The notes under the pieces were generated by a model that ran no database searches, was not told where the DNA came from, and saw only the letters and a list, made by a program, of their open reading frames with translations. Position numbers and translations under genes: made by a program. Source: an uncultured Pelagibacteraceae bacterium (GTDB lineage Bacteria > Pseudomonadota > Alphaproteobacteria > Pelagibacterales > Pelagibacteraceae). Taken from it: a stretch of 40,529 nucleotides of DNA. Below are positions 34,296 through 39,993 of the stretch, in pieces (within the stretch, counting starts at the first letter, position 1; each line of letters starts with the position of its first letter). The stretch spans positions 1-40,529 of the forward strand of contig CACKVV010000003.1 of assembly GCA_902603665.1 (NCBI GenBank), given 5' to 3'.

Positions 34296-35514
34296 AGAAA
34301 TAGATTTAAGTCTAGATAGAGTTAAAAATCTTTGTAAAAAACTTGGTAATCCTCAAAAAGATTTAAAATATATTTCTGTTGTCGGAACAAATGGAAAATA
34401 TTCAACAATTCAGGCACTAAGAGCAATTTTAAAAGAAGCTAATATAAAATGTAATATCTATACTAGCCCCCATATTCAAAGAATTAATGAAAGATTTATA
34501 TTTAACGATGAAGAAATTTCAGACTCTGATCTTTCAGATTTATTAGTAAAAGTTGAAGAAGTAAACAATGGAGAGGAAATAACTTATTTTGAAATTTTAA
34601 CTGCAGCCTATTTTTTTCATGCAATCAAATATAGAGAAAACATAAATATTATTGAAAGTGGTTTATTTCATAGATTTGATGCAACTAATATAATTGATAA
34701 AAATATATTAAGTATTGTTACTGCCATCGGTTTAGATCATTTAGATTGGCTTCCTAAAAACGAGCAAACAATTGAAAAAATTATTTTTGAAAAAACTTCG
34801 GCTCTTTTAAATTCTAAAATAGTTGTAGCTAAACAAAATAGTGAAGATACACAAGAATTAATAAAACAATCTTTATCCTCAAATGAAGCGAAAAAGATCA
34901 TATTTAATGATAATTTTAGTTATTTAATTAATGAAAATGAATTTATTTATTTTGAAGATGAATTTGGAGGAATAAAATTACCTCAACCAAATTTAATTGG
35001 ACAATTTCAAATTGATAATTCAGCTACAGCAGTTGCAGCTGCTAGAAATCTAGATTTGAATATAACTGATGAAAATATTAAATCTGGAATTACAAAAATT
35101 AAAAGTATTGCAAGACTTCAAGAAATTAAATCAGGTAAATTAAAGGATTTATGTAAAAATAATCAGCTATTTGTTGATGGATCTCATAATCCTTTGGGAG
35201 CAAAAGCATTAAATGATTATTTACAAACACTGAAATGTAAAAAACATATAATTTTAGGTATGATGGCCAATAAAGATCATGAAGAATACATAAGCTATTT
35301 TAAGAATATTTCTTCATTAACAACAATAGATATTCCAAATCAAACTAACTCAATTAAAGGTAAAGATCTGAAAAATAAGTTAAATAAATTTCCTAATCTA
35401 AATAATGAAAAATCAGTGGAGGATGCCTTAAAGAAAATTTCTACTGACAACGATGACATCATACTTATCACAGGATCTCTTTATCTTGCTGGGGAAGTTT
35501 TAAATTTAAATTAG
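34249..35514 (+). CDS. folC: Folylpolyglutamate/dihydrofolate synthase family (Mur ligase-like)
   Basis: [62 protein letters not shown]; overlaps accD by 47 bp. Confidence 0.9.
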
Positions 35515-35831
35515 ATATTTTCTTTTATCCAAGAAACAATATCTGATTTTGGTGTTGCTCCAACTTTAGTCGATTTTAACTCTCCGTCTTTGAAAAGTAA
35601 CATTGTAGGTATACCTCTAACACCGTATTTTGTTGGCGTATTAGGCTCTTCATCAATGTTATGTTTTGCAATAGATACATCGTTTGCCATTTCATCTGAG
35701 ATTTCCTCTAAAATCGGTCCGACCATTTTGCAAGGTCCACACCATTCTGCCCAAAAATCAACTACAATTGGTTTGGACGATTTTAAGACTTCTGTATCAA
35801 AATTTTCGTCTGTAATTTTTAATGTTGCCAT
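35511..35831 (-). CDS. trxA: Thioredoxin
   Basis: [35 protein letters not shown]. Confidence 0.97.
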
Positions 35832-35897: not shown

Positions 35898-37331
35898 TCA
35901 TGCATTTTCATATTTTTTCTGTATTGACATTGCGTAATTATTGAATTCATCAAGAAGATTTAATTTTTCCTCATCATTTTCATTTGTATACTTTTCTCTT
36001 AAGGTATCTATCTCAGTGTAAAGAGTAGGAATAGTCCACCATTTTTCTTTTCTTTCACTTAATATTCTTTTAGCGATATCTCTTTTCATAGATTTAAGTA
36101 TCTCAGGTGGTAACGTTTCAGGTGCCTCTTGATAAATAATTTTTTTTCCAAAACCAACCAATCTATCATCTTCGAATTTATCTAATAACTTTAATTTATC
36201 TTTCCATGATGCAGCATGCCAGGCTGGGAATAACGCAGTATCTTTGTTTGAAGTAAACTTTGTATAAATACTTTCTTCGGCATAAATATCTTCTTGTGAT
36301 TTTGAGTGTTCTTTTTCCTCTGCCACTTCTCTTAAAGCAACAAGAATATTTTGAGAAAATTTTTCATTTTTTTGAACAATCTCTGCTCTCTTATTTATTA
36401 AACTTTTATCCATTGCATTATAGGGTTCTGCTTTCATTCCATATTTTGCGTCAAAAATAATTGGAGCTTTATTTGATCTAATAGTTCTTAAAAACTTAGG
36501 TGATTTTTTCATTTCTACCTTTAATTCGTTTATTGATAAATTTAACAATGGCTCGACATCTGTTCTTAAATCAACAGAATAATACCAACCTTGGTAGATT
36601 GGATGCATGCAATATTTTGAATGCAGTGGAACCACTAAATGAAGCCGTGACTTTCCATAATAATATTCATTTAAAGTAAAAATATCACCTTTTTTAATAA
36701 TAGTTTCAGTATCAGATTTATTCGCTGTCTTTAAAAAATCATTCCAAGTATGTTCTTGTTTTTTTTTAACAATGCTTAGTACTTTAGCAGTCATCTCAGC
36801 ATCAGCTAGTGCCGAGTGAGCATCACTTGAGTCTATCCCTTGCATACGTGCAAGCGATTCTAATTTAAATACTGCATTATTCTTTTCATTAAATTCTACC
36901 TCTAAAATATTTGGATCTACTGCATAAGCTGCTCGAGCAATATTAATTCCATCATGTCTTTTATTTGGTGCTGCATTGGTTAAATAAGGATATCTTATTC
37001 CTTTAAAGAATTCTTTTCTGATCATTTCATCATCAAAACCGATATTTGACCAACCAAGAAAGATTGCGGGACTCCATTTTTTGAAGATTTTCTCAACCTC
37101 GGCCAACATTTGATAATGACTTAAGTTTGCTTGTGTAAGTTTTTTAATTGAAGTTTTGTTTACTATTAATGCCATTGCCTGAAAGATTTCACCTTCTGGC
37201 AAACGACATCGTAGATTAAATCTATCTTTTTCTTTGAAGTTTTCATCAACAAGCACTCCACCGATTTCAATTATGCTACCAAAGTCAGTGCTGGCACTTG
37301 ATGACTCAATATCCCAAATTGCTAAATTCAT
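35898..37331 (-). CDS. sbcB: Exodeoxyribonuclease I
   Basis: N-terminal WDIESSSASTDFGSIIEIGGVLVDE, FLGWSNIGFDDEMIRKEFF, DAHSALADAEMTAKV; ~477 aa ExoI architecture. Confidence 0.93.
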   Translation of the reverse strand: MNLAIWDIESSSASTDFGSIIEIGGVLVDENFKEKDRFNLRCRLPEGEIFQAMALIVNKTSIKKLTQANLSHYQMLAEVEKIFKKWSPAIFLGWSNIGFDDEMIRKEFFKGIRYPYLTNAAPNKRHDGINIARAAYAVDPNILEVEFNEKNNAVFKLESLARMQGIDSSDAHSALADAEMTAKVLSIVKKKQEHTWNDFLKTANKSDTETIIKKGDIFTLNEYYYGKSRLHLVVPLHSKYCMHPIYQGWYYSVDLRTDVEPLLNLSINELKVEMKKSPKFLRTIRSNKAPIIFDAKYGMKAEPYNAMDKSLINKRAEIVQKNEKFSQNILVALREVAEEKEHSKSQEDIYAEESIYTKFTSNKDTALFPAWHAASWKDKLKLLDKFEDDRLVGFGKKIIYQEAPETLPPEILKSMKRDIAKRILSERKEKWWTIPTLYTEIDTLREKYTNENDEEKLNLLDEFNNYAMSIQKKYENA

Positions 37332-37458: not shown

Positions 37459-38145
37459 TCAAGATATATTATTCATCTCGTAAAATTTTTTAACCCTTCC
37501 CATAAATAAATTTTGATACATTTCTAATTCAGCTCCCTCAATTTTAAATTCTTGAAATAAGTTATCCTTTGTACAAAGAAGTATAATTCCTGCTTTCATC
37601 TTTGTTCCATGAACTACATCATGAGCTAAAGTGTATGCTCCAAGTTGTAAAAAATAATCTTGAATATAATCAACTTTTTTTGGTTTATTTGCTTGTTTAA
37701 AATCTACAACAACATCTTTTCCTTCATAAAAACCAATAAGGTCGGCAGTCCCTGCATATTGCTCAGGGTAATAAAGTGTTTCCTCCATACCATAAATTTC
37801 ATGTAATCTTCCTTTAATTCCTTTTTCAATTATTTCTTTTGCCATATTTTTATATTGCTCATTCGTTTCGAAAAAACTTTCGTTAATTCTTCCTCTTAAA
37901 AAATCTTCAATGTATGAATGCATTGACGTGCCTCGGGTTGAAGCTTCAGTTTTTATTCTATTGGCTTCTTTGTGACCTACTCTTTCTTTCCAATTTGCAA
38001 GAGCTGCTTTTTCTTCCTCAGATTTGGTAGCACTTAAAATAGTTGTGACACTTGGTAATTTTTCATCTCCAAAAAAATATTTTCTATATCCATTCTCTAT
38101 TGATCTCGATGACTTTGGGTAAGTATATTTATTATTCCACTCCAT
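37459..38145 (-). CDS. PD-(D/E)XK (RecB-fold) exonuclease, MGME1-like
   Basis: LPSVTTILSATKSEEEKAALANWKERVG, TRGTSMHSYIEDFL, YAGTADLIGFYEGKDVVVDFKQANKPKK, DYFLQLGAYTLAHD. Confidence 0.82.
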   Translation of the reverse strand: MEWNNKYTYPKSSRSIENGYRKYFFGDEKLPSVTTILSATKSEEEKAALANWKERVGHKEANRIKTEASTRGTSMHSYIEDFLRGRINESFFETNEQYKNMAKEIIEKGIKGRLHEIYGMEETLYYPEQYAGTADLIGFYEGKDVVVDFKQANKPKKVDYIQDYFLQLGAYTLAHDVVHGTKMKAGIILLCTKDNLFQEFKIEGAELEMYQNLFMGRVKKFYEMNNIS

Positions 38146-38182: not shown

Positions 38183-39277
38183 CTAATTTTTGAGTTGTTT
38201 TGGATGGTTCTCTAGTCTTTCAACGTTTTCATTTTTTATAGCTTTTTCTATTTGTTCAGGATCTTTAATATTTTCTAGCGTTCTTGTAATTGATCTTGCG
38301 TCCGTTCCAAATTTATCAACTACAGTCATTGCTTCCTCTAATTTTTTTCTAAGTGAGATTATATTATCAAAATGTTTAGCAAATCTTGTACTTATTGTTT
38401 TTAAATGATTATAAATTTCAGTTGCACCCTTTTGAACTTTTAGAGATTGAAAACCCATGTGTAGAGATTGAAGATATGCTGATAGTGTATTTGGTCCACA
38501 AATTACAACTTTATATTTTTTCATTAGTTCTTGAGTTAATAATTCTTTAGTACTTGGATCTTGATATTCAGTTAACTCTTTATACAAACTTTCGGTAGGA
38601 GCATATACAATTGCAAAATCTGTTGTTTTCGGTGGAACAATATATTTTTCATTCACACTTTTGGCTTTTGCTTTAAATGCGGATGCTAGTTTTGATTTAG
38701 CATCTGCGACTGCTTTTTTATCATCTGCATCATAGCCATCTGTAATTGCTTTATATTTTTCAACTGGAAAATGGGAGTCTACTGGAACCAAAACATCTCC
38801 TTGAAGTTTAATTGCAAATTCAACATTCTCGCTGGTACTCTCCTTCATCTTCACATTTGTCATAAATTGTGACACTGGTAATAAATCTTTTATTAAAGCA
38901 TCCAAACTAAATTCTGCTAAAACTCCATATTTTTTCACACCTGCTAAGATTTTAGTTATGCCTTCTTGGCTTTGATTTAATAATTGTACTTGCTGATTAA
39001 AATTTCCAACTTTTTCATCCACTTTTGTTAGTGCCTCAGTCATGTCTTTTGTAACACCAGTTGACAGGCTATTAAATGAGGTCGACATTGCACCAAGTGA
39101 GTTATTAATAGTAGAATTAAGCGTATCTTTTAAACTTGAAATTTCTGATTTTAGATTTGCAATTTCCTCTGCTTCTTTTTTTTCATCTTTTTTTTGGTTA
39201 GATTTCAAATTTATGAACAGTATTGCTAAGGCAACACCAAATATTAAAACTAGAATAATTAATAAAATTATATCCAT
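38183..39277 (-). CDS. rmuC: RmuC-family DNA recombination protein
   Basis: N-terminal TM, coiled coil, VDSHFPVEKYKAI, DFAIVYAPTESLYKEL, VVICGPNTLSAYLQSLHMGFQSL. Confidence 0.92.
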   Translation of the reverse strand: MDIILLIILVLIFGVALAILFINLKSNQKKDEKKEAEEIANLKSEISSLKDTLNSTINNSLGAMSTSFNSLSTGVTKDMTEALTKVDEKVGNFNQQVQLLNQSQEGITKILAGVKKYGVLAEFSLDALIKDLLPVSQFMTNVKMKESTSENVEFAIKLQGDVLVPVDSHFPVEKYKAITDGYDADDKKAVADAKSKLASAFKAKAKSVNEKYIVPPKTTDFAIVYAPTESLYKELTEYQDPSTKELLTQELMKKYKVVICGPNTLSAYLQSLHMGFQSLKVQKGATEIYNHLKTISTRFAKHFDNIISLRKKLEEAMTVVDKFGTDARSITRTLENIKDPEQIEKAIKNENVERLENHPKQLKN

Positions 39278-39315: not shown

Positions 39316-39993
39316 TTATTTTGAAATCAAATTAATAACTTTTTTAATTCCCTGAATTTTCACACTTTTTTTAGATATCATCAAACAAGCTTGAGATTTT
39401 AAAATTTCACCATCTTTAAGAATTCTAAGATTGTTGGCTTTTAGGGTTTCACCAGTTGATGTTATGTCGGATATGATTTCAGAAGATCCTGTAAATGGAT
39501 AAATTTCTGTTGCACCAAGACTTTTAACTAACTTAAATTGAGTTACACCTCTTTGAAATAGAAATTCCCTAGTTAAGTTAGGATATTTGGTAGCAACTCT
39601 TAATCTACTTTTCTTTTTATCTTTAAACTCAAAAGCTATTTCTTCTAAATCAGCTAATGTCTGAACATCAATCCAGTCATCAGGAATAGCTATTACTAAT
39701 GTAGCATCACCAAAGTTATATTTTTTTTTAACCAAGATTTGTTTTTGAATATTAATTTCACTTTCTTTAAGTAAATCATAACCTGAGAAACCAATATCTA
39801 GAGATCCATCTCCTAATCTTTCTACAATCTCTCTTGCATGCAAGTAAGTAACATTGATATTTTTAAATCCTTTAATATAACCAAATAAATCTCTCTCTCC
39901 TCGTTCAGATAAAAGTTTTAATTTTTTTTTTGAAAAAACTTTTAAAACATTTTTTCTTAATCTTCCCTTGCTTGGTATTCCAATATTAATCAT
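39316..39993 (-). CDS. hisG: ATP phosphoribosyltransferase (short, HisZ-dependent form)
   Basis: INIGIPSKGRLRKNVLKVF, RLGDGSLDIGFSGYDLL, RVATKYPNLTREFLFQRGV, GATEIYPFTGSSEIISDITSTGETLKANNL; overlaps a HisZ-like gene. Confidence 0.94.
   Translation of the reverse strand: MINIGIPSKGRLRKNVLKVFSKKKLKLLSERGERDLFGYIKGFKNINVTYLHAREIVERLGDGSLDIGFSGYDLLKESEINIQKQILVKKKYNFGDATLVIAIPDDWIDVQTLADLEEIAFEFKDKKKSRLRVATKYPNLTREFLFQRGVTQFKLVKSLGATEIYPFTGSSEIISDITSTGETLKANNLRILKDGEILKSQACLMISKKSVKIQGIKKVINLISK

Follow-up and report, generated by a model that had tools for sequence, protein, structure and literature searches.

The window analysed here is a 40,529-nucleotide stretch of DNA from an uncultured Pelagibacteraceae bacterium. 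It contains an intact gene for a protein of 228 amino acids, running from ATG to stop and lying between a rmuC-type gene and a sbcB-type gene (exodeoxyribonuclease I, ExoI); the positions of these genes, of the border genes hisG and trxA and of the key codons of the nuclease are given in Table 1. The initial annotation had placed an open reading frame here without naming its strand. The frame is real and belongs to the minus strand, the plus strand across the same interval being interrupted by many stop codons. We identified the rmuC-type gene by reading its sequence and through relatives in the same cluster that match Pfam RmuC (PF02646); searched against NCBIfam, the window protein itself gave no RmuC match. 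The product of the sbcB-type gene matches NF008746 (exodeoxyribonuclease I) over its full length at 3.5e-40, a score under the curated cut-off. In the window the interval from hisG to trxA holds only rmuC, the nuclease gene and sbcB, and scans for promoters and terminators gave no informative signal, promoter-like sites being fewer than in shuffled sequences.

Table 1. Genes and active-site codons of the nuclease locus in the window
Feature	Position	Strand	Basis
MGME1-type (PHROG 298) PD-(D/E)XK exonuclease, 228 aa	37459..38145	-	ORF; phrog_298; human MGME1 by phmmer, profile and Foldseek
Codon W52, on MGME1 W152 (one of the two residues of the 'structural pin')	37990..37992	-	phmmer alignment; 116/116
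Codon H76, on MGME1 H180	37918..37920	-	phmmer alignment; 116/116; H180 role PMC6237815
Codon E121, on MGME1 E223 (motif I)	37783..37785	-	phmmer alignment; 116/116
Codon D135, on MGME1 D238 (metal ligand)	37741..37743	-	phmmer alignment; 116/116
Codon D148, on MGME1 D251 (metal ligand)	37702..37704	-	phmmer alignment; 116/116
Codon K150, on MGME1 K253 (catalytic lysine)	37696..37698	-	phmmer alignment; 116/116
rmuC-type gene, directly upstream of the nuclease, same direction, 37 bp gap	38183..39277	-	ORF
sbcB-type gene (exodeoxyribonuclease I), 127 bp downstream of the nuclease, same direction	35898..37331	-	
hisG, bordering the locus, and in divergent Pelagibacter the variable island, on the left	39316..39993	-	Sequence reading; position in relatives
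trxA, right border of the locus	35511..35831	-	Sequence reading; border conserved in relatives

The 228-residue protein contains LPSVTTIL (residues 30-37), NWKER (51-55), RGTSMHSYIED, YAGTADLIG, VVDFKQ and YFLQLGAY, so that every motif of the ordered set on which the initial annotation had based its MGME1-like RecB-fold exonuclease is present. The same identity is returned by phmmer, profile and structure searches. In a phmmer search of the PDB the four best matches are all human MGME1 (E 3.7e-9 to 3.2e-8) and the next, unrelated one stands at 0.37; a profile built from 64 relatives, the profile check suggested at the outset, finds human MGME1 at 6.7e-20. Identity between the Pelagibacter and human proteins is about 21%, and Pfam adds nothing more than a bare PDDEXK_1 match. 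Among the PHROGs the best match is phrog_298 'exonuclease' (2.6e-49). Human MGME1, taken as the stretch aligned in the PDB match, likewise finds phrog_298 best (1.5e-22, the next family being at 2.6e-4), making the similarity reciprocal as well as significant and full-domain. A tblastn search of phages with human MGME1 gave 502 records; among the matches listed most are annotated as exonucleases, and several are the very genes matched by the Pelagibacter protein. The resemblance to MGME1 is thus far beyond chance.

Comparison of a predicted structure with human MGME1, also proposed with the initial annotation, led to the same family. The AlphaFold2 model (pLDDT 92.7, pTM 0.89) has MGME1 entries as its first nine Foldseek matches in the PDB (best E 1.6e-12, TM 0.75 and 0.86), followed by RecE (8e-6, TM 0.47), and phage PD-(D/E)XK exonucleases as its best matches among predicted viral proteins. 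RecE, lambda exonuclease and AddA have the RecB-type nuclease fold in common with the Pelagibacter protein, and lambda exonuclease and AddAB stand at TM values of about 0.36 and 0.37; MGME1 is nearer to the predicted fold than other PD-(D/E)XK nucleases are. Cas4 and Cas4-like enzymes belong to the same superfamily, but their fold match is far weaker than that of MGME1 (TM about 0.33), and we rejected a Cas4 identity for the protein, which scores 15.1 bits against the NCBIfam cas4 model (TIGR00372, cut-off 65 bits) with an E-value of 0.015.

By sequence and predicted fold the best solved relative is human MGME1 (PDB 5zyt, 5zyu, 5zyv, 5zyw and 8xa9); unlike it, the Pelagibacter protein, a putative exonuclease, is encoded on a bacterial chromosome together with ExoI and RmuC. 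Its phage relatives in PHROG 298 include exonucleases of the pelagiphages HTVC023P and HTVC027P, the jumbo phages Atu_ph07 and 121Q, and the Kyanoviridae P-SSM4 and HTVC008M, all resembling it over nearly the full length at 30-45% identity. The phage genes sit amid phage replication and structural genes, whereas the Pelagibacter gene lies on the chromosome in one copy, flanked by rmuC and sbcB. On these comparisons the Pelagibacter gene and human MGME1 are assigned to one broad family, the known diversity of which is largely viral.

The roles of H180, E223, D238, D251 and K253 of MGME1 and its aromatic pin of W152 and F173 have been described (PMC6237815). Counting residues along the phmmer-PDB alignment, with a chain offset of 93, we found that H76, E121, D135, D148, K150 and W52 fall on MGME1 H180, E223, D238, D251, K253 and W152, respectively. 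The computed alignment therefore supplies all five catalytic residues of the MGME1 family, among them the counterparts of H180, D238, D251 and K253 that had been listed in the initial annotation. The 116 Pelagibacter copies compared, without exception, have the same residue at all six active-site and pin positions. Where MGME1 has F173, in contrast, they have Ser, Thr or Leu, and since only the tryptophan half of the pin is present, we call the protein a family relative and not a strict human-type orthologue of MGME1. Pairwise dN/dS values among the Pelagibacter copies are 0.01-0.17, and the gene is therefore under purifying selection in its host. Two copies (G115:C30:48289-48972 and G229:C2:37095-37775) have one in-frame TAA each, which reflects either gene disruption or an error in sequencing.

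Distribution was assessed in 247 genomes of the order, bearing in mind that draft genomes may give false absences. Of 159 Pelagibacter genomes 148 had the nuclease, always in one copy, and outside the genus this search yielded a 44-residue match in one genome (G087) and a single weak, partial match in another (G085). The former, from another SAR11 family, has a 3.4 kb contig (G087:C25, L112) with a Pelagibacter-like accD-folC-trxA-sbcB-nuclease end, and this contig is probably Pelagibacter contamination of the assembly. A 34-row profile found no nuclease in 20 non-carriers; the same profile was positive in the class-wide search. Across 385 genomes from the class and 299 from the phylum, full-length matches occurred only in Pelagibacter, and the remaining ones were partial, weak and located within open reading frames of about 960-1400 aa; the weak Alphaproteobacterial matches in frames of roughly 1000 aa we take to be AddB-type on the grounds of size and partial coverage. 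Beyond Pseudomonadota, bacteria were sampled by a scan of genome contigs, which gave 128 relatives, the best 80 of the 128 all being Pelagibacteraceae or Pelagibacterales by title. A plasmid search returned distant matches only.

The order hisG-rmuC-nuclease-sbcB-trxA was seen in 72 of 80 loci, the others being without a border gene in the stretch examined. In three genomes of other SAR11 genera (G038, G070 and G090) rmuC and sbcB lie 27-37 bp apart with nothing between them. The slot is thus empty in sister genera, and the nuclease gene has been inserted into an older rmuC-sbcB pair. In one genome a DUF2130 protein (PF09903) stands in place of rmuC, and in another such a protein lies beside the cluster (L118:5755-7035; L105:9024-10163). 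We also considered joint loss of RmuC with the nuclease. Eleven Pelagibacter genomes are without the nuclease, and six of these are also without hisG in the assembly; because the missing hisG points to an unassembled locus, and because divergent RmuC was found in others, we discounted this association. In one genome (G150) the sbcB match is truncated, as fits a broken contig.

In divergent Pelagibacter the hisG-trxA interval can reach about 35 kb and includes defence genes. One such interval (G122, L275-L276) encodes the DISARM proteins DrmA and DrmB together with a methyl-directed restriction enzyme, another (G159, L274 and L278) MzaB and MzaC of the MZA system, and a third (G026, L268-L270) PbeA and genes that are Dnd-like by sequence reading only; type II methylases are found in two more (G046, L277; G096, L115). 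A defence-island interval between hisG and trxA was noted in a further divergent Pelagibacter as well (G103, L272). The interval is a defence-island hot spot in divergent Pelagibacter, which is useful to know in its own right. Both the nuclease and ExoI are retained in these islands, and RmuC or a DUF2130 protein lies close by. Separately, proteins of 1119-1124 aa adjoin the nuclease cluster in three genomes (L275:10494-13856 in G122, L320:14234-17593 in G202 and L321:5424-8798 in G103), and the two of the three that were scanned have a TM0106-type RecB-like nuclease fused to an IGHMBP2-type helicase.

Phage relatives of the nuclease are numerous. They comprise 982 records from isolates and 598 confirmed stretches from IMG/VR, the closest, on marine IMG/VR contigs, being about 50% identical; a single-protein scan of the viral contigs had found no match, and an alignment scan of them gave more than 600 stretches. 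To place the Pelagibacter gene among these we used a tree of 64 rows, 16 of them Pelagibacter, in which the root was not inferred and MGME1, on a long branch, served as outgroup only. The Pelagibacter rows form one clade (support 99/96) and no phage row falls inside it. This clade joins a marine phage contig with phage-like neighbours (L225; 96/82), and the two together lie within marine phages (97/92); jumbo phages and then cyanophage-type and Ackermannviridae sequences follow further out. By profile match and by placement among phage members alike, the gene thus belongs with PHROG 298, and the initial suggestion that it may be phage-derived gains support from isolates, IMG/VR and tree together.

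The simplest reading, and most likely the right one as far as the sequences indicate, is that a marine phage passed the gene once to the ancestor of Pelagibacter. The alternative raised in the initial annotation, vertical descent from an alphaproteobacterial ancestor, would trace mitochondrial MGME1 to a bacterial source in SAR11. In its favour, SAR11 belongs to the Alphaproteobacteria and the MGME1 match is real, but orthologues spread through SAR11 and the Alphaproteobacteria were not found: the gene is limited to a single genus, appearing convincingly neither in other SAR11 genera nor in the other Alphaproteobacteria and Pseudomonadota sampled, the slot is empty in sister genera, and the phylogeny, run as had been advised, nests the Pelagibacter clade inside phage exonucleases. 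We regard vertical descent as extremely improbable. A transfer in the opposite direction, phages having taken the gene from Pelagibacter, draws on the uninferred root and the long MGME1 branch; it is difficult to reconcile with a single, well-supported Pelagibacter clade that no phage row enters and with phage copies that are far more diverse, lie around that clade and come from unrelated hosts as well, and we judge it very unlikely.

As an exonuclease MGME1 digests ssDNA from either end, proceeding about three times faster from the 5′ one (PMC11551736). Given this preference for the 5′ end we checked RecJ, which PMC4846377 presents as the normal 5′ nuclease of the RecF pathway. RecJ has an unrelated, DHH-family fold, and we claim no homology; what it is proposed to share with the nuclease is the role of 5′-3′ ssDNA exonuclease, and the two contrast in distribution. 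Using TIGR00644 across the 247 genomes of the order, in a search confined to RecJ among the 5′-3′ exonucleases, we found RecJ in 26 of 159 Pelagibacter genomes, leaving 133 of the 159 without it, versus 79 of 88 genomes from the rest of SAR11. Three of the Pelagibacter genomes without RecJ are single contigs of 99% completeness (G003, G015 and G020), and the nuclease of one of them (G015) is 99% identical to the window copy. This contrast is new here; by title, we found no paper on RecJ loss in Pelagibacter.

The genus-level contrast has a naive Fisher p of 4e-31, a figure that is phylogenetically close to a single comparison: as the gain of the nuclease is one event and the association runs through shared ancestry, the genome counts are not independent. 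On the nuclease gene tree RecJ-positive genomes are scattered across deep branches, and the absence of RecJ requires about eight changes, a few of which may be draft gaps. Since 24 genomes hold both genes, loss of RecJ is not obligatory. Where RecJ is retained in Pelagibacter its scores are about 340-427 bits, versus mostly 520-575 elsewhere in SAR11. Scores are also lower in two Pelagibacter genomes without the nuclease (G024 and G044), and faster RecJ evolution in the genus may therefore not depend on it.

Three genomes with an assembled locus have neither RecJ nor the MGME1-type gene and carry at the locus a Cas4-like PD-(D/E)XK gene of 258-273 aa instead (L320:11988-12809 in G202, L273:2024-2800 in G184 and L321:4124-4900 in G103), which in G202 lies exactly between the genes for RmuC and ExoI. 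G024 and G044 have neither type of nuclease and have kept RecJ. Among assembled loci, every genome without RecJ has a small PD-(D/E)XK nuclease there (127/127), and the two genomes with an empty slot are both RecJ-positive (Fisher p 0.028, uncorrected for ancestry). AddA was absent above the cut-off from 32 of 32 SAR11 genomes, carriers and non-carriers alike; its absence does not track the nuclease, and we therefore rejected the idea that the nuclease replaces AddAB. With no AddA in these genomes, SAR11 end processing probably rests on a RecF-type route.

Taken together, these results lead us to favour, with a modest degree of confidence, the view that the job of RecJ passed to an ssDNA exonuclease captured from a phage and working with ExoI, which allowed RecJ to be lost. 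The protein would be a metal-dependent ssDNA exonuclease of the MGME1/PHROG 298 family. The ancestor of Pelagibacter would have captured its gene from a marine phage; inserted between rmuC and sbcB, the gene would then have been kept as a near-universal part of the chromosome. By analogy with MGME1, the enzyme would trim 5′ ssDNA ends and tails and the neighbouring ExoI would deal with 3′ ends, RmuC presumably taking part in this joint work. In a lineage without AddAB it would supply the 5′-3′ activity usual for RecJ, which could thereby have become dispensable and been lost in most of the genus. That the nuclease may be a functional substitute for RecJ is suggested by the distribution of the two genes. 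A broader proposal, which we put forward tentatively and think somewhat short of probable, is that captured PD-(D/E)XK nucleases, of the phage MGME1 type or Cas4-like, settle in the rmuC-sbcB locus and have repeatedly replaced RecJ, placing 5′ end processing in recombination or repair in the hands of a viral enzyme of a mitochondrial family.

The main competing explanation is that the nuclease, ExoI and RmuC make up a defence locus that degrades incoming phage or plasmid DNA alongside restriction-type systems. In divergent Pelagibacter the nuclease and ExoI do share the hisG-trxA interval with DISARM, restriction, MzaB/MzaC, PbeA and methylase genes, and a Cas4-like gene replaces the nuclease in some genomes. 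In the window and most genomes, however, only nucleases lie between hisG and trxA, and strong purifying selection on a near-universal gene is more typical of housekeeping than of patchy defence genes; we consider a defence role rather unlikely. The nuclease could instead do what MGME1 does in mitochondria, trimming 5′ flaps at replication to give ligatable ends, and family, active site and fold are all common to the two. Yet the 5′-3′ exonuclease domain of Pol I is retained in 24 of the 24 SAR11 genomes tested, in a frame of about 925 aa, so that this job is already filled, and the F173 half of the pin has become Ser, Thr or Leu. As the main job of the enzyme, flap trimming thus appears improbable, and substitution for RecJ remains our preferred reading.

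The match of human MGME1 to PHROG 298, far above other phage families, may indicate that the mitochondrial enzyme too came from a virus; its position within a phage exonuclease family would suggest a viral rather than an alphaproteobacterial origin. Other proteins of mtDNA replication have a viral source. We found no paper linking MGME1 with SAR11. For Pelagibacter, an extremely abundant marine bacterium, the finding means that a putative DNA-trimming enzyme of the MGME1 type is near-universal in the genus. If the preferred reading is true, Pelagibacter domesticated a phage nuclease at its root, and this enzyme assumed a task left to RecJ in nearly all bacteria. That would be a concrete and testable example of core repair machinery giving way to an enzyme of viral origin.
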